A stretch of DNA of 13,742 nucleotides from Ruminococcus flavefaciens (lineage in GTDB: Bacteria > Bacillota > Clostridia > Oscillospirales > Ruminococcaceae). Below the pieces are notes generated by a model. The model searched no databases, had not been told where the DNA came from, and saw only the letters and a program-made list of their open reading frames with translations. The number at the start of each line of letters is the position of its first letter. Within the stretch, counting starts at the first letter, position 1. Positions 1 to 13,742 of this stretch are shown here, piece by piece. The stretch is from assembly GCA_902796705.1 (NCBI GenBank), contig CADBQF010000121.1, positions 1 to 13,742 on the forward strand, read 5' to 3'. The position numbers and the translations under genes are program-made.

Positions 1-2138
1 ATGCCCATATTGGCTGTGAACTGCCTGAGAAAATACTTGTTGTCGATATATCCGCATTTTTCGGAAACGTCGGTCATATTGAGCGTCGTTGTGGAAAGGT
101 AGTATTTTGCTTTCTGTATCCTTGCAGCGATGCAGTCCTGATGAAAACTTATACCGAAGCATTTCTTGTAAATGGAACGGAAGCTGTTGAGATTGCCTGA
201 CTTTATCTTTCCGAGGTCGTCCTGATCGAAAGTCTTTTCCGGGTAAGTGTAGATATATGTCCTGATATCAGCCATATCGCTGTAATGGAGACTTGTACGG
301 CGTTCGTTTATTACGGCGACTTTTTCGTCGTTTGAGTCGGTGCATATCTTCACAAGATTGCTGAACGGCTCGCCGTCGCATCTCACAGCGGAGCAAACGA
401 AAGAATCGACACCGAACACATCGATATACTTTTTCTGGCGGATAAGCATTGCTTCGAGCGTGCCGGAAAGGATCTCCGGATCGGCATCGCTGCGGACGAG
501 GCAGGCGAATTCATTTTCCGAGATATGAGCGGCTGCATCGTGAGTACCGCAGAAAAGTTCCAGTGCATGAGCGGCAGCGAGTACAGCTTCGATCCGTTTT
601 TCTGCGGCAGAATCGATGATCGCACCGTCTGAAAGGCTCGTCCTTAAAAGAATGAAGCAGAGCTTGTTGTTATCTTCTGACTTGGAGGAATACACTCTTT
701 CGATGCCTTTATAATTGTACATACCGGTGAGCGTATCACGGTATTCTGAAAGATTCTGGCAGCTTGTGAGGTACTGGATATCATTTTTCATTCTGAGGAA
801 TTCCAGACCGTTTGTGACGGATTTGAGCCAATGGCGGAAAACGTCATCATATCCGTCGGGAGTGTCATATTTAAGTACGATATGACCGAGTTTGCGTTCG
901 CTGACGAACATCGGCGTGAAATAGTACACCGACGGTGTATTGCTGCTGCTGAAAAGTGTTTCGAGATCGAAACGGTTTATCTCGAACGGCGATGTATCGA
1001 GCCACGGAAGTATAGTTCTGCATGACATCGTTTCGGAAGTTTCCTGACTTACATCATACCAGTTTGAGTAAAGGCACAGAAAAACATTCTGGACATATCG
1101 TATGAGCCATTGATGATCTCCGATTATGCCGATGAATTCTTCGAGACTGCGGCTGTTAGTGAGTCTCTGCTCCATAGTGCTGTAAAGATTCCAGTGTTCG
1201 TAATCTTTCATTTCGGCAGTTTTCTTTATCTCGTACCGGTGGAACTTCTCGTCATGTCCGCATGGGCATGAATCTCCGAGAATGAGTTTGCCGGCAGGCG
1301 GTTCGTACTCTTTCAGAGGCTTGCCTTCGATAAGGCACTGTAGCTGCTGGAACGAGAGATTGCCTATGCCACGCCTGTTACGCTTGAAAGTAGTCAGCAG
1401 CGGAGCATACATAAGTCTTCTGTCGGAGTATTCGTACCCGACAACAGCGACTTTTTCCGGTATTTTGATATCGACATCAGCGAGCGAATCTATAAGCGTG
1501 TAAGCCATACAGTCATTGGCACACACGATAGCTTCCGGCAGGGGATACATACCGCTTATGTACTTGGCGGCAGTCTCACGTCCGGAAGTCAGCCAGAAAT
1601 CACCGTAATGCACTTTGTTCATATCAGGTTCGATGCCGTGAGCTTCGAGAGCGTCGAGATAGCCTTTTACACGTTCCTGTGAGATTTCGTTGTCCTCAAA
1701 TCCGGCGAGCATATCGATGTTGGTGTATCCGTGCTTTTCGATGAGATGAGAAGTGAGGACTTTCATATCATAACGGTCACTTGAATTCACGCTGATATAG
1801 TCCTGATCCTCAAATTCTTCAGTGACACAGCCTGCAATGACGACGGGAACAGAGAGCTTCTTCACGAGATCGGCAGCATATTTTCTCTGACCGATATTAA
1901 CGAAAGATTCAGCCATTATGATAAGTCCTTTCAACTGATCAGACATGGCAAGGTCGAATATATGTCTCTCGCTGTCGAGGTTATTATCATCATACAGGTA
2001 ATTATAAACATTTGAAAAAACGGCAGTATCATATCCGGCAGCCATAGCTGATTCAGCAACACCGCAGATAACTTGTTTCTGATCGTAGTTATTGGCGACG
2101 GCAGTAATGATACCTATGATCGGCCTGCGATCGTTCAT
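1..2138 (-). CDS. LacI-type sensor / degenerate GGDEF / AraC-family transcriptional regulator (3' end cut off)
   Basis: The frame is open from an ATG at 2138 down to base 1, about 712 residues, so the gene leaves the window. The chosen ATG lies about 7 nt after an AAAGGGGG ribosome binding site; an in-frame ATG at 2144 is too close to it. Residues about 5-300 read as a LacI/periplasmic-binding-like ligand domain (starting RRPIIGIITAV), but there is no LacI headpiece in front. Residues about 310-460 look GAF-like. LTGMYNYKG near residue 471 starts a GGDEF-like domain whose signature is SENEF instead of GGDEF, so it is probably not a cyclase. The last ~90 residues resemble an AraC/XylS DNA-binding domain (second helix-turn-helix VSEKCGYIDNKYFLRQF); only some 10-20 residues seem to be missing. 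It is probably a cytoplasmic sugar-responsive regulator. The divergent dockerin-esterase is a plausible target, by inference from position. Confidence 0.85.
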   Translation of the reverse strand, partial: MNDRRPIIGIITAVANNYDQKQVICGVAESAMAAGYDTAVFSNVYNYLYDDNNLDSERHIFDLAMSDQLKGLIIMAESFVNIGQRKYAADLVKKLSVPVVIAGCVTEEFEDQDYISVNSSDRYDMKVLTSHLIEKHGYTNIDMLAGFEDNEISQERVKGYLDALEAHGIEPDMNKVHYGDFWLTSGRETAAKYISGMYPLPEAIVCANDCMAYTLIDSLADVDIKIPEKVAVVGYEYSDRRLMYAPLLTTFKRNRRGIGNLSFQQLQCLIEGKPLKEYEPPAGKLILGDSCPCGHDEKFHRYEIKKTAEMKDYEHWNLYSTMEQRLTNSRSLEEFIGIIGDHQWLIRYVQNVFLCLYSNWYDVSQETSETMSCRTILPWLDTSPFEINRFDLETLFSSSNTPSVYYFTPMFVSERKLGHIVLKYDTPDGYDDVFRHWLKSVTNGLEFLRMKNDIQYLTSCQNLSEYRDTLTGMYNYKGIERVYSSKSEDNNKLCFILLRTSLSDGAIIDSAAEKRIEAVLAAAHALELFCGTHDAAAHISENEFACLVRSDADPEILSGTLEAMLIRQKKYIDVFGVDSFVCSAVRCDGEPFSNLVKICTDSNDEKVAVINERRTSLHYSDMADIRTYIYTYPEKTFDQDDLGKIKSGNLNSFRSIYKKCFGISFHQDCIAARIQKAKYYLSTTTLNMTDVSEKCGYIDNKYFLRQFTANMG

Positions 2139-2176
2139 TACCATTCCCCCTTTAATTGTTAATATCCCTTATAAAT

Positions 2177-2205
2177 AGTATAAACCAAAATTTGTTATTA
2201 GTCAA
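2177..2205 (-). promoter_or_regulatory. sigma-A-type promoter of the AraC/LacI-type regulator
   Basis: On the minus strand, TTGACT (2205-2200) and TATACT (2182-2177) are separated by exactly 17 bp. Transcription would start near 2170, leaving a leader of about 30 nt before the ATG at 2138. Confidence 0.7.
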
Positions 2206-2244
2206 TGAAAAAATAGTATTTTGTCCACGTTTTTTTCAGAAAAT

Positions 2245-2297
2245 GCACTTTGTGAAATTATGAGGTGTGAATTAGCTAAAACAAATTCACAAAATGC
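2245..2297. repeat. imperfect inverted repeat, candidate operator
   Basis: GCACTTTGTGAA (2245-2256) and TTCACAAAATGC (2286-2297) are reverse complements over 12 positions with one mismatch, 29 bp apart. The spacer carries another TGTGAATT half-site (2266-2273). The arms lie 40-90 bp upstream of the regulator's minus-strand promoter. Arms this far apart suit a dimeric or looping regulator better than a terminator, since no T-run follows. Related GCATTTT motifs occur at 2409, 2429 and 2714. The function is inferred. Confidence 0.4.
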
Positions 2298-2408
2298 CTT
2301 ACTGAAAGTAAAATAATAATCGACCGCAGTTACATGGGAAAATCTCCTCAAAAAATATGGTAATCTGATAAAACAAATTATTTTCGTGTTATTAATTAGA
2401 TTTTTTCT

Positions 2409-2442
2409 GCATTTTATCCACTCAAAATACATTTTATGAGTT
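2409..2442 (+). repeat. direct copies of the GCATTTTAT motif upstream of the RNA promoter
   Basis: GCATTTTATCCACT (2409-2422) and ACATTTTATGAGTT (2429-2442) are close copies 20 bp apart, about two helical turns. They sit directly upstream of, and touch, the -35 box at 2441. A third copy, GCATTTTATTCACT, is at 2714-2727. The position suits activator sites; the cognate regulator is unknown, though the adjacent AraC-type protein is the natural candidate. Confidence 0.35.
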
Positions 2443-2469
2443 GAAATTGAACAATATGTATTGTATAAT
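2441..2469 (+). promoter_or_regulatory. strong sigma-A-type promoter of the putative non-coding RNA
   Basis: TTGAAA (2441-2446) and TATAAT (2464-2469) are separated by exactly 17 bp. The start should fall near 2476-2479, just before a hairpin-rich stretch that ends in a strong terminator at 2631-2675. Confidence 0.7.
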
Positions 2470-2475
2470 ATATTT

Positions 2476-2675
2476 GTAATAAAAACCTCTCAGTTTTTAT
2501 GATCCCGGCATCGTAGAGATATGGTGCTGAGTATCACCCTCTCCGGGTAACAATACAGCAGTTCGCTGCATCTGCACAATAGCAGTGGCCGCTGTAGCAT
2601 TCCGAAATGTCATTGTAAGGGACAAATCAGAAACGAAGCAGCCGTATCAAATGATACGGCTGTTTCGTTTTATAC
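2476..2675 (+). ncRNA. putative structured non-coding RNA or regulatory leader, family not recognised
   Basis: About 200 nt bracketed by its own promoter and a strong terminator, with no credible reading frame. Visible hairpins: 2479-2486 with 2493-2500 (8 bp, 6-nt loop); a bulged stem pairing CCCGG 2504-2508 with CCGGG 2543-2547, AGAG 2515-2518 with CTCT 2539-2542 and GGTG 2523-2526 with CACC 2535-2538; GCAG-TTCG-CTGC at 2558-2569; and 2582-2586 with 2591-2595 around a GGCC loop. An alternative fold pairs TACAGC 2554-2559 with GCTGTA 2591-2596 around CTGC 2566-2569 / GCAG 2582-2585, excluding the last two hairpins. This would suit a small regulatory RNA, or a leader read into the esterase gene 170 bp downstream when termination fails. 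I could not match it to 6S RNA, SRP RNA, T-box or a known riboswitch. The transcription unit is well supported; its identity is not. Confidence 0.55.
2631..2675 (+). terminator. strong intrinsic terminator of the putative RNA
   Basis: An 18-bp stem (2631-2648 with 2653-2670, one G-U pair) closes a four-base AAAT loop and runs into a GTTTTAT tail. The A-rich 5' side means it could also terminate transcription from the other strand. Confidence 0.85.
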
Positions 2676-2835
2676 AGGAGAAAAGATTCGTATGCAAAAA
2701 ATCCACTGAATCTGCATTTTATTCACTGACATTCTGCACAAATATTTATATAATTTAAATAGTGGATATTATGATTGGAGAAGCTGCATAGGTTTTATAG
2801 TAAACATATTATAATGTAACACAGATTTATGGAGG
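2676..2835 (+). promoter_or_regulatory. esterase upstream region with a weak candidate promoter
   Basis: This AT-rich stretch lies between the RNA terminator and the esterase. It contains the third GCATTTTAT copy (2714-2727) and a TATAAT at 2810-2815. No good -35 box lies 17 bp upstream (CATAGG at 2787-2792), so a promoter here would probably need an activator. The leader from this -10 would be only about 20-25 nt. Confidence 0.4.
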
Positions 2836-2844
2836 GTGAAAAAT

Positions 2845-4104
2845 ATGGATCTGAAGAAACCTGTAGCTATTCTCGCAGCGGCATTGTGCTGTCCTCTGAT
2901 AGCACTGTCTAACAACAACTGTATGACATCTGATGCAATGGGATTTCCGGGCGGCTGGAACCCGTGGGGAAACGATCCTTTCCCGTTTCAGGAACAGCCT
3001 GCGGCAGTAGTCCTCGGCGATCTCAACAGTGACGGAAGTGTAGATGTATTTGACACGATCCTCGCAAGAAAGGCATCGATAGACGTTTTTCAGGGAGTTG
3101 CCTTTTCCGATCAGAATGTTTTCAAAGCGGCTGACGTGAATGAGGACGGACAGTACAACGTTGCTGATCTCGTGCAGATATGTGAATTCGTTCAGGGAAA
3201 GAGAACTTCCTTCACGAAGAGCAGCGGCGGCAATAATGATGAACCAAATAATGACGATCCCACAGGAGGCTACATGGACAAGGTACGCAGCACTCTTACT
3301 GCTGATGTTCCGGCTGATGTCACTTCTAAGCAGGGAAATGTCGATTACGGCAGAGTGGAATCAAAGACTTACTATTCTGATTTTGCAGGCAAGACAAAGA
3401 GTGTGAATGTCCTGCTCCCGGCAGGATATGACGGCACGAAGCAGTACCCGGTACTTTATATACTGCACGGTATATTCGGCAATGAGAACTCTATGCTCGA
3501 CCAGAGCATGGCTGTTCAGGCTATTGCCGGAAATCTCGCTGCAAAGGGCGAGGCCGAGCAGATGATAATAGTCTTCCCGTCGATGTTTACCAGCAAGACT
3601 AAAAACGGCTGTGACGGATTCTCGCCTGACAATATGGAAGCATATGATAATTTCCTTTATGATATCGCAGACAGCCTTATGCCGTTCATCGAATCGAACT
3701 ACTCTGTAAAGAAAGGCAGAGAGAACACAGCAATAACAGGATTTTCAATGGGAGGCAGAGAAGCTCTCTATATCGGACTGATGAGGTCTGACCTTTTCGG
3801 TTATATAGGTTCAGCCTGTGCAGCTCCCGGAATAGTTGCGACAGTTGATAACTTCGCAACACACGTAGGCTGTCTCCAGGAGAGCGAAGTTAAATTCAAG
3901 GACGGAAATCCGCTCCCTGAACTCTTCCTCATCTCAGCAGCAAGGTTTGACGGAACAGTCGGAGAATATCCGTTGAGCTACCATAATATGCTCACTGCCA
4001 ACGGAGTCGAGCATTTGTGGCAGGTCATCGAAAACGGTGACCACGGCGGCAATACCGTAAGACCTCATCTGTACAATTTCCTGAAGAACATCTTCAAGAA
4101 TTAA
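2845..4104 (+). CDS. secreted dockerin-containing esterase (CE1/esterase-D-like), cellulosomal
   Basis: The chosen ATG (2845) follows GGAGG at 2831-2835 by 9 nt; an in-frame GTG at 2836 overlaps the binding site and is unlikely. The product is about 419 residues. Residues 1-22 form a short signal peptide (lysines, then a hydrophobic run ending LIALS). Residues about 57-120 are a type I dockerin with two calcium-loop repeats, starting GDLNSDGS (58) and ADVNEDGQ (96), which would dock the enzyme to a cohesin on a scaffoldin. A Gly/Asn/Asp linker leads to an alpha/beta-hydrolase domain of the putative-esterase family. Its elements are an oxyanion-type YILHGIFG, the nucleophile Ser301 in GFSMGG, probable Asp369 and His400 in NGDHGG. 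Relatives include feruloyl and acetyl-xylan esterases of plant cell wall breakdown; the exact ester cleaved cannot be read from sequence. The dockerin is N-terminal, between signal peptide and catalytic domain. Confidence 0.9.
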   Translation: MDLKKPVAILAAALCCPLIALSNNNCMTSDAMGFPGGWNPWGNDPFPFQEQPAAVVLGDLNSDGSVDVFDTILARKASIDVFQGVAFSDQNVFKAADVNEDGQYNVADLVQICEFVQGKRTSFTKSSGGNNDEPNNDDPTGGYMDKVRSTLTADVPADVTSKQGNVDYGRVESKTYYSDFAGKTKSVNVLLPAGYDGTKQYPVLYILHGIFGNENSMLDQSMAVQAIAGNLAAKGEAEQMIIVFPSMFTSKTKNGCDGFSPDNMEAYDNFLYDIADSLMPFIESNYSVKKGRENTAITGFSMGGREALYIGLMRSDLFGYIGSACAAPGIVATVDNFATHVGCLQESEVKFKDGNPLPELFLISAARFDGTVGEYPLSYHNMLTANGVEHLWQVIENGDHGGNTVRPHLYNFLKNIFKN

Positions 4105-4150
4105 AGTTCGCATTTATTCTCATAAACAACCGCTATTGATCTGATCTTAC

Positions 4151-4190
4151 ACCGCAGATCCTCGTTTACAGGGGATCCTGCGGTTTTTTT
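4151..4190 (+). terminator. intrinsic terminator of the esterase gene
   Basis: ACCGCAG pairs with CTGCGGT, extended by ATCC/GGAT across one bulged C, followed by seven T. It closes the esterase unit and immediately precedes the next promoter. Confidence 0.9.
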
Positions 4191-4191
4191 G

Positions 4192-4220
4192 TTGACAATG
4201 GCCCGTTTCGGCTGTATAAT
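4192..4220 (+). promoter_or_regulatory. exact-consensus sigma-A promoter
   Basis: TTGACA (4192-4197) and TATAAT (4215-4220) are spaced by exactly 17 bp. It directly follows the esterase terminator and drives the small cysteine-motif gene and the lipoprotein gene, with a leader of about 25 nt. Confidence 0.9.
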
Positions 4221-4250
4221 AATATCAGTACTTTTAAAAGAGGTGAACTT

Positions 4251-4598
4251 ATGCACTTTTTATGCAAGTGCGGATTCCGGCTGCACGACAGTTCTGATAA
4301 GATCTATTACAAAGGCAGAGTTATCGCAGATCAGGACTGGAACAAGTTCTGGGAGTATATAGAAAAGCTTGAAAAACCGCATGGCGGCAATACACGAGAG
4401 ATATATAACAGTATCTATGATCTGTTCGGCATGAATATGTATCAATGCCCCTCATGCGGAAGGCTTTTTATAGAAGATCCGGAAAACAGATCATCGCTTA
4501 TCAGGTTCACTCCTTGTCTGGAAGGAGAACCGGAACCGGATATAAACAAAAGACTGCTTTCGTCTTATCATAAAGATAAGACGGACGGCAATGAATAA
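4251..4598 (+). CDS. small hypothetical protein with paired cysteine (zinc-ribbon-like) motifs
   Basis: 115 residues, with AGAGGTG about 6 nt before the ATG. I do not recognise the family. Two cysteine knuckles are visible: CKCG at residues 5-8 and CPSCG at 66-70. Together they could form a zinc ribbon bringing the two ends of the domain together. The middle is rich in aromatic and charged residues (DWNKFWEYIEKLEK), and the C-terminal tail is polar. There is no signal peptide or membrane segment, so it should be cytoplasmic. It is the first gene of a two-gene unit; the lipoprotein start follows 32 bp later. A similar CxCG...CPxCG arrangement is common in short Firmicute proteins of unknown role. 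Confidence 0.75.
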   Translation: MHFLCKCGFRLHDSSDKIYYKGRVIADQDWNKFWEYIEKLEKPHGGNTREIYNSIYDLFGMNMYQCPSCGRLFIEDPENRSSLIRFTPCLEGEPEPDINKRLLSSYHKDKTDGNE

Positions 4599-4630
4599 TA
4601 AAATACGTATTATAATAAGGAGATCATAAT

Positions 4631-5488
4631 ATGAAAAAATTCAGGTTATTATCCGCCGCTGCCGCTGTGCTTACTGCTGTCTGCCTGACCTCGTGCGGAC
4701 ATGATGATGAGGGCAGCGAAGCATTGCTCTCTTCTTCGGCAGAAGAACAGCAGACATCAACACAGACAGAGGAAACTTCTGCTGATACGACAGAAGCAGA
4801 GACAGCTTCTCTTCCGGAATCTACAGAGGAAATTCAGGAAGAAACTGAAACAGAAACAACTTCCGAAGAAAAAGGTCAGGGCGTAAACGGCAGCTATGAA
4901 GATGTCCATACGATAGCCCCCGGACTCTGGCTGGCAACAAGCGATTTTTACATTGACGGTATAAATCTTCGTCAGCAGTTCTTCTATGAGGTAAATGCCG
5001 ACGGCACCGGTGTCATGGCTGTCCAGAGTACAGGTGAAAGGGAAGAAGTCACATACACGTTCACAGATACAGAGGCAACAGTCGAGGTCGTTGCCCCTAT
5101 GTACGGTGATGAAAAAGCAGGCTTTTCCGGAACGCCGAATTATATCAATGCTGATACGGCAGAGGTAGTGTATTCCGACGGCAGTTCAACTCTGTGGCGG
5201 TATTTCAGCGACCAGAAGCTTGATGACATACATTTTTTCAGCAATTCAGAACTTTCTGATCTTGCTGAAAGTTTCTACAATTCCACAGACGGCAGGGAAT
5301 GTCAGAGCATCAGGGTATATATCGGAGAAGATGACATGATAATCCTTGAATTGTTTGAAGCACCTGAACCCGGTGAAGTCGGGGACGAGAATTACCTCGA
5401 TACGTACAGGATCGACCGATTCACAGGAAAGGGAACTGACAAGAACGGCGAAGAAGTCGATCTTGTCGCTTCTATGAGCCAGTGGTGA
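4631..5488 (+). CDS. putative lipoprotein with acidic Thr/Glu-rich linker, function unknown
   Basis: 285 residues, starting 8 nt after an AAGGAG site. The N-terminus is a lipoprotein signal: KK, a hydrophobic Ala/Leu stretch, then the lipobox LTSC with Cys22 as the likely lipidated residue, so the protein should be anchored to the outer face of the membrane. Residues about 30-85 form a low-complexity Ser/Thr/Glu/Gln-rich spacer, probably crossing the cell wall. Residues about 90-285 form one folded, beta-rich-looking domain (LWLATSDFYIDG, YTFTDTEATVEVV) rich in Asp/Glu and lacking visible catalytic motifs. I do not recognise the family. It shares an exact-consensus promoter with the small cysteine-motif gene and ends at a terminator. 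Confidence 0.8.
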   Translation: MKKFRLLSAAAAVLTAVCLTSCGHDDEGSEALLSSSAEEQQTSTQTEETSADTTEAETASLPESTEEIQEETETETTSEEKGQGVNGSYEDVHTIAPGLWLATSDFYIDGINLRQQFFYEVNADGTGVMAVQSTGEREEVTYTFTDTEATVEVVAPMYGDEKAGFSGTPNYINADTAEVVYSDGSSTLWRYFSDQKLDDIHFFSNSELSDLAESFYNSTDGRECQSIRVYIGEDDMIILELFEAPEPGEVGDENYLDTYRIDRFTGKGTDKNGEEVDLVASMSQW

Positions 5489-5503
5489 TATATGGGAAAT
5501 TCG

Positions 5504-5553
5504 CTCCGTGGATATGAAGCCGGTACTCGCTTTGTGTTCACGGAGTTCTTTTT
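5504..5553 (+). terminator. intrinsic terminator after the lipoprotein gene
   Basis: CTCCGTG (5504-5510) pairs with CACGGAG (5539-5545), followed by TTCTTTTT. The long loop contains an inner AAGC/GCTT pairing, giving a branched stem. Confidence 0.7.
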
Positions 5554-5564
5554 GATATGACCTA

Positions 5565-5593
5565 TGGACAAATTATCATGATTGTGGTAAAAT
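5565..5593 (+). promoter_or_regulatory. promoter of the two-component / GTPase-nuclease operon
   Basis: TGGACA (5565-5570) and TAAAAT (5588-5593) each match the sigma-A consensus in five of six positions, with a 17-bp spacer. The leader to the kinase start is about 30 nt. Confidence 0.6.
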
Positions 5594-5631
5594 TAATAAT
5601 ACGATAACTATGTTTAACCGGAAGGCCTTAT

Positions 5632-6714
5632 ATGAAAAAAGCAATTGATAAACTGATGATAATAGCAGCCGGAATAATGATGTCGTTCGGGGAGAAGGAA
5701 AGTCTTGTCATTGTGACGGCATTTCTGATGGCTGTTATAATATTTACATTCTCAGGGGGAAAAATATTCAGCAGGCTGAAATATCTGTATCTTGTGCCGT
5801 GCATATTTTTTGATCCGTTCATGTGCTTCCTTCCGCTGATCTTTTACGAATCGGTCAGTGAGAAAGTCTATACAGCATCGGCAGCATCGGCTGTTCTGTG
5901 CATCGGCAATACACTCAGCCGGTTTGATGATACATCAACGATGAATGCAGTCATATCAGTTTTAGCTGTGATACTTGCATTCAGAACTTCTTCTCTTCTT
6001 GAACTGGAGGATAAATTCAGGATAATGAGAGATTCATCAGCCGAGCTGAATATCCATATGAAAGAGAAAAACGAGCGGATAATGCTCGAACAGGATCATC
6101 AGATACACCTTGCAAAGCTTATGGAGCGAAACCGCATCGCCCGTGAGATACACGACAATGTCGGCCATATGCTTTCGAGGTCGATACTCCAGACAGCGGC
6201 TTTACAGGTGATATGTACTGATGAAAATATAAAGGATTCGCTCTCCAGCCTGAATGAGACTCTCAATACCGCCATGACTGATATCCGCAGGAGCGTCCAC
6301 GATCTTCACGATGAATCTATTGATCTGCGTGAGGCTCTGAAAGCCGCAGCAGCACCTCTCAGGGAAAAAGGCATCGATGTGACCGAAGAACTCAACTTCG
6401 GTAACGATATCCCGAATAAAGTCAAGATATCTTTTATCGGTATTGTCAAGGAGGGCGTGTCGAATATACTCCGCCACAGCAATGCAGACAAGGTGTGGCT
6501 CACGCTCAACGATTATCCGGCGTTTTATCAGCTTATCCTGAGAGATAATGGAAAATGCGGTGAGATCATGTCGTCCGGCATAGGACTGGAAAATATAAAG
6601 AGTCGTGTTCAGTCGCTCGGCGGTATCCTGAAGATAGACAGCACCGAGAAAGGTTTCAGGATATTCGTAACAGTCAGAAAGGAGATCCCTGATGAAGATA
6701 ATAGTAACAGATGA
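5632..6714 (+). CDS. membrane sensor histidine kinase, NarL/DesK class (HisKA_3)
   Basis: 360 residues; GGAAGG precedes the ATG by about 8 nt. Residues about 8-120 hold four or five hydrophobic segments with little extracellular sequence, like small intramembrane-sensing kinases. A short coiled coil (about 125-165) leads to the HisKA_3 dimerisation box RNRIAREIHDNVGHMLSR, where His174 is the predicted phosphorylation site. The C-terminal HATPase_c domain has its N box (KEGVSNILRHSNA, Asn278), G1 box (DNGKCGE, Asp305) and G2 box (GIGLEN, Gly316), so it should be active. The last 23 nt overlap the response regulator gene, which indicates translational coupling. The stimulus is unknown; kinases of this shape often sense membrane or antibiotic stress. 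Confidence 0.92.
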   Translation: MKKAIDKLMIIAAGIMMSFGEKESLVIVTAFLMAVIIFTFSGGKIFSRLKYLYLVPCIFFDPFMCFLPLIFYESVSEKVYTASAASAVLCIGNTLSRFDDTSTMNAVISVLAVILAFRTSSLLELEDKFRIMRDSSAELNIHMKEKNERIMLEQDHQIHLAKLMERNRIAREIHDNVGHMLSRSILQTAALQVICTDENIKDSLSSLNETLNTAMTDIRRSVHDLHDESIDLREALKAAAAPLREKGIDVTEELNFGNDIPNKVKISFIGIVKEGVSNILRHSNADKVWLTLNDYPAFYQLILRDNGKCGEIMSSGIGLENIKSRVQSLGGILKIDSTEKGFRIFVTVRKEIPDEDNSNR

Positions 6715-7315
6715 CGACAGGATAGTCGCAATGTCCCTTAAAACAATAATAAGTGCCGATAAGGACGCTGAGGTCATCGCTGAATGTCACAGCGGAGAGG
6801 AAGCTGTTGAGATGTATGATAAATACCTGCCGGATATCCTCCTTATGGATATACGTATGCAGGGAATGACAGGCCTTGAAGCAGGTGAGATGATACTGAA
6901 AAAGCATCCCGATGCAAAGATACTCTACCTCACGACTTTCGCAGATGATGAATATATCCTGAAAGCTGTCCGTACAGGTGCTAAGGGATATATCCTCAAA
7001 CAGGATTTTCAGGGGATAATCCCGGCACTTCAGGCGGTGATGAACGGTCAGACCGTCTACGGAGAGAAGATCATGGGCAGACTTCCCGATATAATGTACA
7101 GCAGGAATGGATTCAGCTATGACGGAGCCGATATATCCGAACGTGAGCAGGAGATCATCGAACTCGTTGCACAGGGACTCAGCAACAAGGAGATCTCCGC
7201 ACAGCTCTATCTCAGCGAGGGAACAGTGAGGAACTATATCAGTACGATACTCGAAAAGCTCAGCCTTCGTGACAGGACTCAGCTTGCAGTTTTTTACTAT
7301 AAAAATATAAAATGA
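6692..7315 (+). CDS. LuxR/NarL-family response regulator
   Basis: 207 residues, with AAAGGAG 8-10 nt before the ATG, inside the kinase gene. The receiver domain (about 1-120) has the acidic pocket Asp7-Asp9, the phospho-acceptor Asp53 in LLMDIRM, Thr81/Thr82 and Lys103 in GYILK. Residues about 140-207 are a GerE/LuxR helix-turn-helix with the usual ISEREQEIIELVAQGLSNKEI start and the recognition helix around EGTVRNYIS. It is the evident partner of the kinase. Its stop codon overlaps an in-frame ATG of the next reading frame (ATGA at 7312-7315), and no terminator intervenes, so it is co-transcribed with the GTPase-nuclease gene. Its targets are unknown; autoregulation of this operon is likely for the family. 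Confidence 0.95.
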   Translation: MKIIVTDDDRIVAMSLKTIISADKDAEVIAECHSGEEAVEMYDKYLPDILLMDIRMQGMTGLEAGEMILKKHPDAKILYLTTFADDEYILKAVRTGAKGYILKQDFQGIIPALQAVMNGQTVYGEKIMGRLPDIMYSRNGFSYDGADISEREQEIIELVAQGLSNKEISAQLYLSEGTVRNYISTILEKLSLRDRTQLAVFYYKNIK

Positions 7316-7326
7316 ACGGAGCAGCC

Positions 7327-9885
7327 ATGAAAAAGATAACTGTAGGTATAACCGCACACGTCGATTCCGGAAAGACCACGCTCTCGGAATCCGTACTTTT
7401 CCGGACAGGTGCAGTCAGAAAAGCCGGACGTGTCGATGACGGAAGTTCCGCTCTTGATACTGATACAATAGAACGCAGCAGGGGCATAACCATATTTTCG
7501 CATCAGGCAGAATTCACATCGGGAGATACACACGTTTATCTTCTCGATACTCCCGGCCATGCCGATTTTGCAGCAGAGACAGAGCGGACGATGCGTGTGC
7601 TTGACTATGCCGTACTTGTCATAAGTGCAACAGACGGCGTGCAGAGCCACACTTCCACGCTCTGGAAGCTCCTGCGGAAGTACAGCATACCGGTATTCAT
7701 CTTTGTGAATAAAATGGATCTCACCGGAGCTGACCGTGAAGCCGTTCTCGACAATATAAAAAAGCATCTTTCACCGAACTGTACTGACTTTACTGATATA
7801 TCGGCTATTTCCGAAGAAGCCGCACTGTGCAGCGACGAACTTATGGAAAAGTATCTTTCTGACGGAGAGATATCTGACGGAGAGATCGCTGACTGTATCG
7901 CACGCAGGCAGATATTTCCGTGCTGTTTCGGTTCGGCACTTAAAATGAAAGGCGTTGATGAGTTCATAGATGTGCTGTGCCGTTTTACAAAAGAGCGTGA
8001 CTATCAGGAGATGTTCGGGGCAAAAGTATACAAGATAACATACGACCAGAAAGGCAGCCGTCTTACACATCTGAAAATACTCGGCGGAACGCTCCGTATG
8101 CGTGATGAACTGAAATACACCGACGCTTCCGGCGAGGAAGTCACCGGAAAGATAAGCTCGATACGTTTTTATACAGGCGACCGCTTCCGCTCTGCCGAGA
8201 CAGCCGGAGCAGGTGATGTTGCGGCTGTGACAGGTCTTGCCGGAACTTATCCCGGACAAGGCATAGGCAGCATAAGGAATTCCGGCAGAGCAGTCCTTGA
8301 ACCGGTGCTGACATATCAGGTTGGACTTCCGCCGGAAGTGAACGCTTTTGATGTGCTTAAAGATATGCGTCGCCTTGAGGACGAAGATCCTCAGCTACAT
8401 ATTATATGGAACGAGCAGCTAAAGGAGATACATTTGCAGCTTATGGGAGCTATCCAGCTCGAAGTCCTCACAGAACGCATAAAAACGAGATTCGGCTATG
8501 AAGTTTCGTTCGGAACGGGAGCTGTTGCGTATAAGGAAACTATCGCTGCACCTGTGGAGGGAGTCGGACACTACGAACCGCTCCGGCATTATGCAGAAGT
8601 TCATCTTATACTTGAACCGCTTGAACGTGGCAGCGGACTTGTTTTTGACACATCTGTCCGTGAAGATGACCTTGATAAGAACTGGCAGCGGCTCATACTG
8701 ACTCATCTTGCGGAGAAACAGCATATCGGCGTACTCACAGGCTCTCCGCTCACTGATATGAAGATAACTCTTGCCGCCGGAAAAGCACACCTCAAACACA
8801 CAGAGGGCGGAGATTTCCGTCAGGCGACATACCGTGCAGTCCGTCAGGGACTTATGAATGCCGAGAGCGTACTCCTTGAGCCTTTTTATGATTATGAGCT
8901 TGAGATACCGCAGGAGCATACGGGACGTGCTATTGCAGATCTGCAGCATATGTCAGCCGAATTCAATGCTCCGGAAAGCATAGGCGAAATGTCCGTCATC
9001 ACAGGAAGCTGTCCTGTTTCAGAGATGTGCAGCTATCAGTCGGAAGTCATCGCCTACACCCGTGGAAAGGGAAAACTCATCTGTACGGCAGGCGGTTTCC
9101 GTGAATGTCACGATCCGGAGAAAGTCATTGAGTCGATAGGCTACAACTGCGAAGCCGATGTCGAGAACAGTGCGGATTCTGTATTCTGTTCTCACGGAGC
9201 AGGATATCTTGTCAAGTGGAACGAAGTTCCGGAGCATATGCACCTTCCGTCATGCCTTTCTCCGGAACATGATGAAGAAGAACCTCCGGCTGCTGAAAAA
9301 CCTCGTTCATACAGAACAGATGCTTCCGAAGAGGAACTCATGGCTATCTTCGAGCGGACTTACGGAAAAGTTGACCGTGATCCGAGAAGAGCATTCAAGA
9401 AAACGAAAGCCGTCAGCCTTACCGACAACAAAGTCCGTCTTCCCGAATATACAGGCCCGGATTATCTGCTCGTTGACGGATATAACATAATATTCGCATG
9501 GGACGACCTGCGGAAGATATCGACTGAAAACCTTGATGCAGCAAGGGCAGAGCTTATCAATATGATGTGCAGCTACAAAGGCTATACCGGCTGTGAGCTT
9601 ATGATAGTATTCGACGCTTACAAAGTCAGCGGAAAACACCGTGAGATAGAAGATCACAGCGGAGTTAAAGTCGTCTACACCAAGGAAGCTGAAACGGCGG
9701 ATTCATACATCGAACGTGTCAGCCATGACCTTTCAAAGAAACATCGTGTCAGTGTGGCAACGTCTGACGGACTTGAACAGGTCATCATACTCGGAAACGG
9801 TGCGATGAGGATCTCGGCAGCAGGATTCCGCCGCCAGTACGACAATGCGATGCGTGAACTCCGTGAACGCATAGAGAATATGTGA
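7327..9885 (+). CDS. Tet(M)/EF-G-like ribosomal GTPase fused to a YacP/Rae1-type NYN ribonuclease
   Basis: About 852 residues. I chose the ATG at 7327 (GGAG 5 nt upstream, and MKKITVGITAHVDSGKTT aligns with the Tet(M) N-terminus); an in-frame ATG at 7312 overlaps the previous stop. The GTPase domain is intact: G1 AHVDSGKTT (10-18), RGIT (52-55), DTPGH (74-78, catalytic His78), NKMD (128-131). Domains II-V follow to about residue 645 in Tet(M) order. After a charged linker, residues about 712-850 form a YacP-type NYN domain with its acidic residues present: Asp717 (LLVDGYN), Asp763 (VFDAY), Asp792 (TADSYIE) and Asp814 (TSDG). Tet(M)-type proteins bind the ribosomal A site; Rae1/YacP cuts mRNA there. 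I infer a GTPase that delivers a nuclease to stalled ribosomes. The loop matching the drug-displacing Tet(M) loop III (489-496, LKHTEGGD) lacks the SPV tip, so tetracycline resistance is doubtful. Similar fusions are often labelled Tet proteins by homology. Confidence 0.93.
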   Translation: MKKITVGITAHVDSGKTTLSESVLFRTGAVRKAGRVDDGSSALDTDTIERSRGITIFSHQAEFTSGDTHVYLLDTPGHADFAAETERTMRVLDYAVLVISATDGVQSHTSTLWKLLRKYSIPVFIFVNKMDLTGADREAVLDNIKKHLSPNCTDFTDISAISEEAALCSDELMEKYLSDGEISDGEIADCIARRQIFPCCFGSALKMKGVDEFIDVLCRFTKERDYQEMFGAKVYKITYDQKGSRLTHLKILGGTLRMRDELKYTDASGEEVTGKISSIRFYTGDRFRSAETAGAGDVAAVTGLAGTYPGQGIGSIRNSGRAVLEPVLTYQVGLPPEVNAFDVLKDMRRLEDEDPQLHIIWNEQLKEIHLQLMGAIQLEVLTERIKTRFGYEVSFGTGAVAYKETIAAPVEGVGHYEPLRHYAEVHLILEPLERGSGLVFDTSVREDDLDKNWQRLILTHLAEKQHIGVLTGSPLTDMKITLAAGKAHLKHTEGGDFRQATYRAVRQGLMNAESVLLEPFYDYELEIPQEHTGRAIADLQHMSAEFNAPESIGEMSVITGSCPVSEMCSYQSEVIAYTRGKGKLICTAGGFRECHDPEKVIESIGYNCEADVENSADSVFCSHGAGYLVKWNEVPEHMHLPSCLSPEHDEEEPPAAEKPRSYRTDASEEELMAIFERTYGKVDRDPRRAFKKTKAVSLTDNKVRLPEYTGPDYLLVDGYNIIFAWDDLRKISTENLDAARAELINMMCSYKGYTGCELMIVFDAYKVSGKHREIEDHSGVKVVYTKEAETADSYIERVSHDLSKKHRVSVATSDGLEQVIILGNGAMRISAAGFRRQYDNAMRELRERIENM

Positions 9886-9898
9886 CGGAGGTGCTTTT

Positions 9899-10798
9899 AT
9901 GGAAGATATTTATTCTTCATGCACGCTCTGTCCGAGAAGATGCCGTGCTGACCGGTATTCAGGAACAGGCTTCTGCGGGACGGGAGCGGCTGTCATAGCT
10001 GCAAAAGCTTATCTCCACCAATGGGAAGAACCGTGTATCTCCTACAGGAACGGAGCAGGGACGGTATTCTTTTCAGGCTGTTCGCTGCATTGCTGTTACT
10101 GCCAGAACAACGAGATAAGCAACCTCCTGAAAGGGAAAATGCTCACTCCCCGTCAGCTTGCAGATGTGTTCCTTTCACTGAGAGACAAGGGAGCTGACAA
10201 TATAGAGCTTGTAACGCCGACACATTTTGTGCCTGATATCATAAAAGCTCTTGATATGGTAAAGCATAAGCTTGGCATACCGGTAATTTACAATACAGGC
10301 GGCTATGAACTTGCCGAAACGATAGATATGCTCAAAGGCTATATCGATATCTATATGCCGGATATAAAATATTTCTCGCCGGAAGTCTCTGCGAGGTATT
10401 CCTATGCGGCTGATTATTTTGAATATGCTTCGCAGGCGGTGAAAGCAATGACGGAGCAGGCCGGAGAACTTGAGTACAACAGTGAAGGCGGACTTATCTC
10501 CGGTACGGTGATACGTCATCTGGTGCTTCCGGGGCAGAGACATGATTCTATGAAGATAATCGGGTGGATAGCAGAGAATATCCCCCGTGAGAAAGCTCTT
10601 GTGAGCATCATGGGACAGTATACGCCGTTTGAGTTCGTGCGTGAAAAATATCCGGAGCTTTCAAGACGCATAACAAAAATGGAATATAATTCCGTCCTGC
10701 GTCGTGCTGAGGAGCTTGGCATCGAGGGATTTTCACAGGAACGCCGTTCTGCGTCAGAGAAGTATGTGCCTGATTTTGATATGTCAGGATTATTTTAA
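9899..10798 (+). CDS. PflX-like radical SAM protein (COG1313 type)
   Basis: 299 residues; GGAGG lies 7 nt before the ATG and the gene starts 13 bp after the GTPase-nuclease stop, so it is in the same operon. Cys61, Cys65 and Cys68 in GCSLHCCYCQN form the CxxxCxxC motif that holds the radical-SAM [4Fe-4S] cluster. The N-terminus carries a second set, Cys8, Cys11, Cys15 and Cys26 (CTLCPRRC...GFCG), typical of this family and probably another metal site. The rest fits a TIM-barrel core (TPTHFVPDI, IYNTGGYE, YMPDIKYF). Relatives resemble pyruvate formate-lyase activating enzyme, but their substrate is unknown. No glycyl-radical enzyme gene is visible nearby, which argues against a simple activase role here. 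Operon position suggests a link to the translation factor, by inference only. Confidence 0.88.
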   Translation: MEDIYSSCTLCPRRCRADRYSGTGFCGTGAAVIAAKAYLHQWEEPCISYRNGAGTVFFSGCSLHCCYCQNNEISNLLKGKMLTPRQLADVFLSLRDKGADNIELVTPTHFVPDIIKALDMVKHKLGIPVIYNTGGYELAETIDMLKGYIDIYMPDIKYFSPEVSARYSYAADYFEYASQAVKAMTEQAGELEYNSEGGLISGTVIRHLVLPGQRHDSMKIIGWIAENIPREKALVSIMGQYTPFEFVREKYPELSRRITKMEYNSVLRRAEELGIEGFSQERRSASEKYVPDFDMSGLF

Positions 10799-10823
10799 AA
10801 TATTAATATATTGCTCCACCCCC

Positions 10824-10852
10824 TTGACTTTTTTGCGGAATAGGTATATAAT
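10824..10852 (+). promoter_or_regulatory. sigma-A-type promoter of the Nudix gene
   Basis: TTGACT (10824-10829) and TATAAT (10847-10852) have a 17-bp spacer. The leader to the chosen start is about 60 nt. Confidence 0.8.
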
Positions 10853-10920
10853 TACAACGCTATATTACGGACCGTTCTCCGGAAAATGACGGCAGCACCG
10901 GCGTGTGTATGGAGGAAATG

Positions 10921-11712
10921 ATGGACATCGCTGAAATTTTTCTTAACAGGCTCTCAGATGATAACGAGATCTGGGCAGAGGTATCCGAAAAACTCGGAGC
11001 TGAGAAGATCGGCTGCAATGACGAATTGACAGACGTTCTTATGGGTATCTCTGATAAAATGCAATTCAGGATATATATTTCTGACGAAGATATCCCGAAC
11101 GAACTTATCGACAGCATACGGGCAGTTTTTATAAATGCAGCCGAGTGCAGCAGCAGTATAAGTGTAGAGTTCTTTACTGACGAATTTGTGAATATCATCG
11201 ATGAAAATGACAGGATAACTTCAAGGAGCAAGCCGAGGACGCTCGTTCACAGGGACGGCGACCTTCATCCGACAGTTCATGTGTGGATGATAAAGAGGAA
11301 GGATATGGGCATATATGTCCTTCTCCAGAAACGTTCGCATGAAAAGGCGATCTACCCAGACTGCTACGACGTTTCGGCTGCCGGACACGTCACCCAGAGC
11401 GGAGAGTTCGGAAAGACGGCTGTAAGAGAGATCAAGGAGGAACTTGGTCTTGATATCCCCAGAATGAAGCTCGAATTCATAGGTTTCCGCAAGAACCATA
11501 CGAAGTATGATGACATCTGCGACAACGAACTGAGTGCGGTATATCTTTGCCGTGAGCCTATATATGAAGATCAGCTCGTTCTCCAGCTCTCGGAAGTTTC
11601 CGAGGTCTGCTGGGCAGAGATAGACGAGATACTCTCCATAATGGAAGACGGAACTTTCCCGAACTGCATATCGGCAGATGAACTTAAAATGATAAAGAAG
11701 GCTGTTTTCTGA
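10921..11712 (+). CDS. Nudix hydrolase with N-terminal extension
   Basis: 263 residues from the ATG at 10921, chosen because GGAGG (10911-10915) is 5 nt upstream; in-frame GTG 10903, ATG 10909 and ATG 10918 are too early or overlap it. The first 75 residues or so form an acidic alpha/beta segment that I do not recognise. From about residue 85 the protein resembles Nudix enzymes close to isopentenyl-diphosphate isomerase-like and YfcD-like members (HPTVHVWMI, LLQKRS, YDVSAAGHV). The metal-binding core REIKEELGL is intact, but the Nudix box position usually held by its first Glu (GX5E) is Gly, with Glu one residue later. Members hydrolyse nucleoside-diphosphate-linked or isoprenoid substrates; the substrate here cannot be assigned. 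The gene stands alone between its own promoter and terminator. Confidence 0.88.
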   Translation: MDIAEIFLNRLSDDNEIWAEVSEKLGAEKIGCNDELTDVLMGISDKMQFRIYISDEDIPNELIDSIRAVFINAAECSSSISVEFFTDEFVNIIDENDRITSRSKPRTLVHRDGDLHPTVHVWMIKRKDMGIYVLLQKRSHEKAIYPDCYDVSAAGHVTQSGEFGKTAVREIKEELGLDIPRMKLEFIGFRKNHTKYDDICDNELSAVYLCREPIYEDQLVLQLSEVSEVCWAEIDEILSIMEDGTFPNCISADELKMIKKAVF

Positions 11713-11733
11713 GCATTGCCGGGAACAGCTCCG

Positions 11734-11768
11734 AGCCTGCGAGCCGTATGAGCGGTTGGCAGGCTTTT
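11734..11768 (+). terminator. intrinsic terminator after the Nudix gene
   Basis: AGCCTGC pairs with GCAGGCT and the stem continues inward (AGCCG with CGGTT, one G-G mismatch) to a six-base loop, then TTTT. Confidence 0.85.
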
Positions 11769-11819
11769 GTCATAATTTATAAAAAAACAGGTTTTTTTGC
11801 TGTGAATTGAGTTTATTTG

Positions 11820-11848
11820 TTGACATATTACCGGATTATTGGTATAAT
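11820..11848 (+). promoter_or_regulatory. exact-consensus sigma-A promoter of the dynamin-like genes
   Basis: TTGACA (11820-11825) and TATAAT (11843-11848) are spaced by exactly 17 bp. The promoter lies inside the upstream-extended reading frame, which shows that the real start is further downstream, at 11891. Confidence 0.9.
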
Positions 11849-11890
11849 AGAAGATACAATAACTATAGTCATGATAATGGAGGAATCATT

Positions 11891-13534
11891 ATGAAAGCTG
11901 AAACAATGGAAGCTGTAAAACTTATAGGCGGCCTTACAGAAAAATATGAACTCAGAACTCTCTCTCAGAAAACAGAAACACTGAAAAAAGAAATGAACGA
12001 TTTCCGCATGAAGTTTTTGTTCGTCGGCGGATTCAGTGCCGGTAAAAGTGCCCTCGTAAATGCTTTTATAGGTACGGAACTCCTCGAAGAAGGCCAGAGA
12101 CCAGAAACAGCTATCCCGAGTGAGATAGTATACAGCGAGGAAGAATACGTCGAAGCGGTTGCAGGCGATATGGTACGCCGCCTCACGATAGACGATGCAA
12201 TGGATCTCGATACAGAAGGCTATGATTACCTTGTATGGCATATAGATTCCGCACCGCTGAAAGAACTCGGAGAATGCACTATCGTTGATATGCCCGGCTT
12301 CAATTCAGGCATAGAGAACCACAATAAAGCTATTTTCCGCTACGCCGGCACAGGCAATGCCTATATACTCGTCATAGACTGCGAGGAAGGTTCTATCAAG
12401 AAAAATATAGGCGATTTCATCAACGAGATAAAGAATTACGACAATAATATCACTATCGCTGTATCAAAGTGCGATCTGCGTACAGAAGAAGATGCAGAGA
12501 CAGTAAAGAAGAATATCCTCAATACAGCCGCCCTTCTCTTTGGAAAGGAAGTCCCGGTAACTGCTACGTCTAAATTCGATGAAAAGGTCCAGGAGAAGAT
12601 CACTTCCCTTATAGGAAAGATCGACCGTGACGAAGTATTCTGCTCGATGTTCAACAGAAAAGTCTATGAGACAGGCTATAGCTGCTATGATGCACTTGAA
12701 ACTTACAGAGACAGCCTTGAACTCGATGTTTCCGAATACGATGAACAGATCAGGGCTCACGAAGAAGCCAAAGCCTCCCTTACGGAAGAACTCAGCAGGA
12801 AAAAGGCACGTCTTGACAGCGAGTTCAGCGGAAAAGTAGTTCCGGCTATCATGGGCGACGTTTCAAATGTTCTCCACCAGAATGCTGATGCTCTCGTTGC
12901 AAGCCTCAGAACAGGCGAGAAGAATTTCACCATGACAGTAAATAACATAATCCGTCCTGTTCTCATGTCAGCTACAAAGGAATACGTTGAGGAGAGCTTC
13001 GATGAATTCATAGGTTCTATAAGTATAGGCGAAGGCGAATTCAGCAAGGGCAGCGAAAATGCTGCCGGCAATGCTCTCCAGAGGATAGTTGAGATAAATA
13101 ACAAACTCAGCATACTCACGAAGAACAACGAGAATTATGACAAAGTATACAAGACAGTCACGACTTCTCTTGCCGTCCTGACAGGATATATCGCACCGTG
13201 GCTCGAAATAGTGGTAATCTTCTTGCCTGACCTGCTTAAACTTATCGGTTCTGTAAATCAGAAGAATGCGATGAAGGACAAGGTGACACAGGAGATAATC
13301 CCGGCTATCATCAACAAGCTCGAACCGGAAGTAGAAGCCTCTGTTATGAAGATGAAGGACGACATGGTGAACGAAACGGAAGTTCAGCTCCATGCTCTTA
13401 TCGACAATGAAATGGAATCGCTCGAAAATATCAGGGCTGCAAAAGAAAATGCCGAATCTGCATCAGCGAGCAGAAAAGAAGATGTTGACAAAGATATCGC
13501 AGCTCTTATCGAGTGTATCAATAAACTTATATGA
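11891..13534 (+). CDS. dynamin-family GTPase, first of a pair
   Basis: 547 residues from the ATG at 11891, 7 nt after GGAGG (11879-11883). The GTPase domain has a P-loop GGFSAGKS (46-53), a switch-I-like PETAIPSE (71-78), DMPGF (133-137) and a G4 motif SKCD (192-195, in place of T/NKxD). Downstream is a long helical region (about 290-420, many Glu/Lys/Arg heptads) and then a hydrophobic segment at about 423-455 (TSLAVLTGYIAPWLEIVVIFLPDLL) able to insert in or paddle the membrane, followed by another helical stretch to the C-terminus. This is the stalk-paddle layout of bacterial dynamin-like proteins, which tubulate, fuse or stabilise membranes. The second GTPase gene starts 20 bp later; such tandem pairs usually act together. 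The precise role is unknown. Confidence 0.88.
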   Translation: MKAETMEAVKLIGGLTEKYELRTLSQKTETLKKEMNDFRMKFLFVGGFSAGKSALVNAFIGTELLEEGQRPETAIPSEIVYSEEEYVEAVAGDMVRRLTIDDAMDLDTEGYDYLVWHIDSAPLKELGECTIVDMPGFNSGIENHNKAIFRYAGTGNAYILVIDCEEGSIKKNIGDFINEIKNYDNNITIAVSKCDLRTEEDAETVKKNILNTAALLFGKEVPVTATSKFDEKVQEKITSLIGKIDRDEVFCSMFNRKVYETGYSCYDALETYRDSLELDVSEYDEQIRAHEEAKASLTEELSRKKARLDSEFSGKVVPAIMGDVSNVLHQNADALVASLRTGEKNFTMTVNNIIRPVLMSATKEYVEESFDEFIGSISIGEGEFSKGSENAAGNALQRIVEINNKLSILTKNNENYDKVYKTVTTSLAVLTGYIAPWLEIVVIFLPDLLKLIGSVNQKNAMKDKVTQEIIPAIINKLEPEVEASVMKMKDDMVNETEVQLHALIDNEMESLENIRAAKENAESASASRKEDVDKDIAALIECINKLI

Positions 13535-13554
13535 TCGTGACCGGAGAATGATAT

Positions 13555-13742
13555 ATGGAAAAGATCACAGATTTACTGAAAAAGATAAGTCTTCAGCTTG
13601 ATGACGGAAAATCGCTGATAAATGATGATAAGATCATAGCTTTCCAGACATCTGCCGCAGAGCTTGAAGAAAAACTCGATTCGATAAAAGAAGAGGGAAG
13701 AGATCTCCGCCTCGGCATCGTCGGTGAGGTCAAAGCCGGAAA
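13555..13742 (+). CDS. second dynamin-like GTPase (5' part only)
   Basis: Only the first 62 codons are in the window; the frame is open to the end. GGAG (13543-13546) is 8 nt before the ATG. The N-terminal 50 residues are helical and charged. They lead into LRLGIVGEVKAG at residues 51-62, which begins a P-loop (GEVKAGK, the Lys codon cut by the window end). A helical preface and a P-loop at this depth match the upstream dynamin-like protein, whose P-loop begins at residue 46. The 20-bp gap after it and the absence of a terminator put the two in one operon. Calling it a dynamin-family member rests on context and the short P-loop segment. Confidence 0.75.
   Translation, partial: MEKITDLLKKISLQLDDGKSLINDDKIIAFQTSAAELEEKLDSIKEEGRDLRLGIVGEVKAG

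Follow-up and report, generated by a model that had tools for sequence, protein, structure and literature searches.

What would a nuclease that cuts messenger RNA (mRNA) gain from being joined to a translational GTPase? The question is raised by a gene on a contig of Ruminococcus flavefaciens (GenBank assembly GCA_902796705.1, CADBQF010000121.1, positions 1 to 13,742; this whole stretch of 13,742 nucleotides is called the window here), the product of which carries an EF-G/Tet-like GTPase followed by a NYN_YacP domain of the Rae1 type. The answer towards which we lean is that the protein is a Rae1-type ribosome-dependent mRNA endonuclease, in which the tail of the free enzyme has been replaced by a translational GTPase serving as a docking module. 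The domains, the acidic residues, the near-exclusion of fused and free Rae1, the missing tail motif and the separate grouping of the GTPase, all read from sequence, argue for this answer; ribosome binding, a GTP-gated order of events, the position of cleavage and the biological trigger are the parts of it that we infer. To our knowledge, how Rae1 reaches particular ribosomes is not settled. A fusion with a GTPase in place of the Rae1 tail suggests a built-in route bringing the mRNA cutter to the ribosome, and makes the targeting question testable in one protein with point mutants.

The fusion itself is not new, having been in print since 2015; what is new here is its distribution, the grouping of its GTPase and the difference in the tail. 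Atkinson 2015 records a Tet–NYN fusion from ten Clostridiales, regarding it as a variant that might serve resistance (PMC4342817). The architecture is alike, judged by that paper's description; there the proteins are treated as Tet proteins of ten species, whereas here they appear as a broad subfamily of their own, present in most cases instead of free Rae1. The initial annotation of the window had stated that no functional description was known. This needs amending, as the fusion had been in print, and holds in so far as no experiments on the fused protein were recognised among the open-licence papers listed. The gene and its parts are as follows.

7327..9885, plus strand: fusion gene, 852 amino acids plus stop, frame open throughout
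7336..7986, plus strand: G domain, residues 4-220 (Pfam GTP_EFTU, E-value 2.5e-51; G-motif residues invariant)
8020..8244, plus strand: domain II, residues 232-306 (Pfam EF-G_D2)
8302..8514, plus strand: domain III, residues 326-396 (Pfam EFG_III)
8518..8862, plus strand: domain IV, residues 398-512 (Pfam EFG_IV, E-value 3.2e-18)
8779..8820, plus strand: tip loop III of domain IV, residues 485-498, with KHTEGGDFR replacing the SPVST of Tet proteins (alignments)
8869..9114, plus strand: domain V, residues 515-596 (Pfam EFG_C, E-value 1.7e-16)
9085..9249, plus strand: C-terminal extension of the GTPase, residues ~587-641 (CH..SVFCSHGAG..W..MHL; alignments)
9250..9459, plus strand: linker, residues 642-711, modelled as disordered over most of its length (per-residue model confidence, pLDDT; length across fusions)
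9328..9363, plus strand: conserved linker helix, residues 668-679 (ELMAIFERTY; alignment of 63 fusions, model)
9466..9879, plus strand: NYN_YacP (Rae1) nuclease domain, residues 714-851, without the C-terminal basic tail (Pfam, structure match, tail comparison)
9475..9477, plus strand: codon of Asp717, aligned with Asp7 of Bacillus subtilis Rae1 (alignment)
9613..9615, plus strand: codon of Asp763 (alignment)
9700..9702, plus strand: codon of Asp792 (alignment)
9766..9768, plus strand: codon of Asp814 (alignment)

The reading of this gene as one frame for an EF-G/Tet-like GTPase with domains I–V and a NYN domain was borne out, Pfam matching every domain. Domains G, II, III, IV and V are present together with the G motifs (Pfam, alignment), the residues of which (G15, K16, T18; D74, T75, P76, G77, H78; N128, K129, D131; S203, A204) are kept in 63 of 63 aligned fusions, all selected beforehand as intact, full-length open reading frames (ORFs). 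The proposed profile search placed NYN_YacP at residues 714-851 with 159.9 bits against a cut-off of 24.6 (E-value 7e-47), and the nearest solved structure to this part is B. subtilis YacP/Rae1 (5mq8/5mq9, E-value 1.4e-26). Asp717, Asp763, Asp792 and Asp814, the four acidic residues singled out at the outset, lie opposite Asp in Rae1 and do not vary in the same 63 fusions; we take them to be the catalytic residues of the domain.

A frameshift artefact joining two genes can be set aside. At least 583 genome stretches (genome contigs) encode a relative of the fusion, and the best 80, which were retained, match it from residue 1-10 through at least residue 830. The best 120 of 7994 scored relatives of the C-terminal part all carry EF-G-type and NYN_YacP Pfam domains, the 7994 being the candidates that shared most words and some of the 120 being shorter pieces. 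Within the window, GGAG at 7318-7321 lies upstream of the ATG at 7327; an alternative ATG at 7312 overlaps the stop codon of the upstream LuxR-type regulator. At least one of the best 80 relatives (L036) has the fusion split into two ORFs. In a one-contig genome (G221, locus L149) ORFs of 288 and 618 amino acids stand in the same frame with one stop codon between them, which may reflect a pseudogene, recoding or a sequence error.

The relation between fused and free Rae1 was followed in a class sample of 391 genomes, the window's own included, 248 of which have NYN_YacP above the cut-off. The domain is fused in 140 genomes: in 126 the ORF is full-length; 13 more, in which contig ends, frameshifts or a stop interrupt the ORFs, were assigned manually; and the last is G330. 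Free NYN with no fused form occurs in 108, 15 of them with an unfused sister GTPase and 93 with free NYN only; the assignment of G224, counted here as free, is unsure, as is that of G237. Eight genomes have the GTPase only, with no NYN match (one, G131, being at a contig edge), and the sample also holds one weak NYN match and one partial GTPase; the match in G248 is sub-threshold. Fused and free forms meet in 1 of the 248 NYN genomes (G330), where 39 would be expected if the two were independent, ancestry ignored. The survey of fused and stand-alone YacP that the initial annotation had proposed thus gives 140 genomes with the fusion, 108 others with the free form and 1 with both, and fused and free Rae1 appear nearly to exclude each other across the class. 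In families f25, f26, f30 and f31 the two forms are found in different genomes, and f57 has both through G330. The genome to which the window belongs is 88.7% complete and has a single NYN_YacP, the fused one. Of 299 genomes sampled across the phylum, 20 have the GTPase, 2 of these with ORFs of unfused length. Judged by these genomes, the fusion is widespread in Clostridia, gut and rumen species included. That unfused GTPase and free NYN occur together in 15 genomes was left unused as weak evidence, 11 of the 15 belonging to one family (f44).

Two side observations concern this distribution. G059 (locus L148) has only a free Rae1, of 168 amino acids, and nothing in it matches the sister GTPase, although several of its genus-mates are fused. 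As its NYN domain clusters with those of other free proteins, one form seems to have replaced the other inside this genus. A contig titled Alistipes (L024) carries a Ruminococcus-like fusion at 67% identity and is probably a binning error.

A second line of evidence comes from the C-terminus of the nuclease. Free Rae1 of the class continues for about 54 residues beyond the position of Gly825 and ends like LEKLEKIRR. By a pattern composed after the sequences had been inspected, this basic motif is found in 35 of 36 free proteins (37 of 38 with two more read directly; the sole exception ends VMKELRKGNVED) and in none of 102 fused proteins. Fused tails have a median of 28 residues past Gly825, and 18 of the 102 have at least 45; beyond residue 28 the mean charge is −0.67 in the 21 longest fused tails versus +1.83 in free Rae1, some single fused tails, such as that of L121, being basic. 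B. subtilis Rae1 ends alike (EKLRR, to residue 166), so the motif includes Arg166, and R166P figures among the suppressors from a B. subtilis screen that were classed as loss of function (PMC6613710). The free enzyme may therefore need its tail, and the GTPase may have made it dispensable. The fused protein resembles Rae1/YacP (NYN_YacP, PF05991) in its NYN domain, its four Asp, its structural match and its nearly always single copy per genome, and differs from it by the preceding translational GTPase and the lack of the basic C-terminal motif with Arg166. The NYN tree requires two changes, the free domains of G262 and G243 standing beside a fused group; because both retain the tail, they are better read as never fused than as products of fission.

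Is the GTPase then a Tet protein? In a tree of 48 proteins, with an unsure midpoint root and EF-G as one very long branch, fused and unfused GTPases cluster together (support 95/94), Tet(M), Tet(S) and Tet(36) form a separate group (100/100), and the fused GTPases make up one group with weak support (63/62). Identity is 29% to Tet(M) and 26% to the EF-G of the window's own genome, which is encoded separately in one copy. At the tip of domain IV, KHTEGGDF stands in place of the SPVST of Tet proteins; among the variants, the Glu is exchanged for Q, D, S or C, and QHTQGGDF, RHTEGGDF and KHTEPPDF occur once each. Lys490, a Lys in at least 90% of aligned fusions, occupies the place of Tet(M) Pro509, a residue that PMC8161019 locates in the tetracycline site. 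A C-terminal extension containing Cys and His is common to fused and unfused members and absent from the three Tet proteins. Against the EF-G translocase model of NCBIfam (TIGR00484) the protein scores 314.8 bits, the cut-off being 659.4. EF-G thus shares the fold and the G motifs with the fusion GTPase, which differs from it in identity, tip loop and C-terminus; Tet proteins share the EF-G-like domain order and the fold, and differ in the tip, the extension, the tree group and the score given below. The GTPase is EF-G/Tet-like in build, yet by these comparisons it belongs to a subfamily other than that of the three Tet proteins. On this point the initial reading needs correcting: the protein does not look like a drug-displacing factor of the Tet(M) type, the Pro509 tip loop being replaced and the protein grouping apart from all three.

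These data bear directly on the possibility, suggested in print in Atkinson's treatment of the ten species (PMC4342817), that the protein protects ribosomes against tetracycline and has gained an RNase, the GTPase dislodging the drug and the NYN domain acting on ribosomal RNA or mRNA. The shared fold and the 29% identity to Tet(M) would fit, as would the names of relatives: as had been anticipated, some homologues carry tetracycline labels, though the expectation holds only in part; of the 11 entries with a name in the best 120 of 7994, 4 are called TetM/TetW/TetO/TetS family protein. However, the consensus of 99 fused loci lacks SPVST, as do all 44 fused or unfused members aligned, and with the NCBIfam tet_protect equivalog the protein scores 431 bits against a cut-off of 775, a Tet(M) control reaching 878 (three other members, one fused and two unfused, score 422-456). 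Moreover, 2 of 1291 matching plasmid records cover at least 80% of the query, one being a 518 kb Monoglobus replicon, whereas tet genes there are mobile; a plasmid origin was rejected, and the fusion looks chromosomal. We regard the resistance explanation as unlikely. The relatives bearing tetracycline labels are probably not resistance genes, which, if correct, is of consequence when resistance genes are surveyed in the gut and the rumen.

Alternatively, the protein may be a stress or rescue translocase-like factor, comparable to EF-G2 or EF4, in which the GTPase acts by remodelling stalled ribosomes and the NYN domain is a secondary nuclease, perhaps directed at ribosomal or transfer RNA. 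The eight genomes with the GTPase and no NYN point this way, and in the five of them that were compared (L155-L158, L166) the GTPase has the same tip loop and extension as the fusion, so that it may have a job of its own. Such a factor would, however, sit uneasily with a nuclease nearest to Rae1 and with a fused form that nearly excludes the free one, and we think it unlikely.

The linker raises a further alternative, namely that it is a mere tether between domains acting separately, the fusion equalising their amounts or localising Rae1 with no GTP control. In an AlphaFold2 model (mean pLDDT 82.5, predicted template-modelling score (pTM) 0.61) the GTPase is ordered, and its structure resembles ribosome-bound EF-G and TetM, with matches reaching residues 1-637 at most. 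The NYN domain is mostly well modelled (a short loop, 817-820, is below 50), and pLDDT falls under 50 at linker residues 646-667 and 687-705, with a helix at 668-679. From the end of the extension to DGYN the linker measures 68-103 residues across fusions. A long, variable and disordered linker and the lack of a widely conserved operon suit a tether. The helix nevertheless suggests integration, T678 being invariant and E670, I674 and Y679 each kept in at least 90% of 63 fusions, and so does the consistent absence of the Rae1 tail motif; the tether account thus seems improbable.

How might a ribosome-dependent endonuclease with a GTPase as docking module work? According to PMC12320835, PMC6613710 and PMC10100781, Rae1 attacks mRNA in the A site of the ribosome, and the last of these proposes that it enters this site. 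Tet proteins bind the A site, where their domain IV tip loops displace tetracycline, according to PMC8161019 and PMC4342817. Since Tet tip loops and Rae1 use the same site, one A site cannot hold both modules at once, and their action would therefore be sequential or off-site. The initial proposal of an A-site GTPase combined with an A-site nuclease thus survives in part: a ribosome-linked mRNA nuclease remains the best explanation, and simultaneous occupancy does not stand. In the course that we consider likely, the GTP-bound protein would enter the factor site of a paused ribosome whose A site is empty, and the KHTEGGDF tip would probe the decoding region. GTP hydrolysis would then withdraw domain IV, and the NYN domain, on its linker of about 70 residues, would cut the exposed mRNA, either in the A site thus freed or where the mRNA enters its channel. 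The ribosome would be left for rescue of the transfer-messenger RNA (tmRNA) type, or decay would simply begin. A bolder version, which we advance tentatively and with some doubt, is a GTP-gated ribosomal mRNA endonuclease: hydrolysis on the paused ribosome would time the cut, free Rae1 and the fused form would do one job in two ways, with unfused KHTEGGDF GTPases acting as partners of free Rae1 in the 15 of 391 genomes that have the two as separate proteins. We know of no other bacterial protein uniting a GTPase and an mRNA nuclease, no search having been aimed at such cases.

Several points weigh against the docking interpretation. As many as 133 of the 391 genomes have neither NYN nor a fusion-type GTPase, and the system therefore appears dispensable. 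Shared ancestry inflates the exclusion count, and G330 carries both fused and free Rae1. The tail pattern is post hoc, and R166P may merely destabilise Rae1. That the fusion arose only once has weak support, and two fusions of family f6 are long branches with altered tips. The model fixes no position of the NYN domain relative to the GTPase, because the linker is predicted to be disordered, and the order of events was devised to reconcile an A-site binder with an A-site nuclease. The literature listed contained no assay of a fused protein, and the gene neighbours, not being widely conserved, lend no support.

As to these neighbours, none of the eight in the window recurs around the fusion in 80 named and 23 diverse loci (E-value 1e-8, half of the query covered, ORFs of at least 100 amino acids). 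When 1010 ORFs near the fusion in 103 loci, one of them the window, were clustered, no cluster exceeded 20 loci; the two largest reach 20 each, one being an ORF on the opposite strand, adjacent in 17 and confined to named loci. The window is absent from all of the 25 neighbour clusters listed, and a conserved neighbourhood was rejected as evidence. A phage origin was likewise rejected, none of 29 loci on viral contigs covering the NYN domain: two match residues 1-645 only, at 46% identity and beginning at a contig end, 24 have matches of 27-31% that do not extend past residue 592, and the remaining three span at most 188 residues.

Directly upstream of the fusion, at 5632-7315, the window encodes a two-component pair (HisKA_3 kinase and LuxR-type regulator), which was not found beside the fusion in the relatives searched; a promoter and terminator scan suggests a local transcription unit with these genes. 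No RNA families or transfer RNAs were found within the window. An esterase with a dockerin domain (2836-4104) points to a cellulosome-forming, Ruminococcus-like host. At 11807-13534 lies a gene for a dynamin-family GTPase, the listed TTG start of which precedes a perfect promoter-like match (11820-11848); as this match is downstream of the TTG, translation probably begins at an ATG further on.
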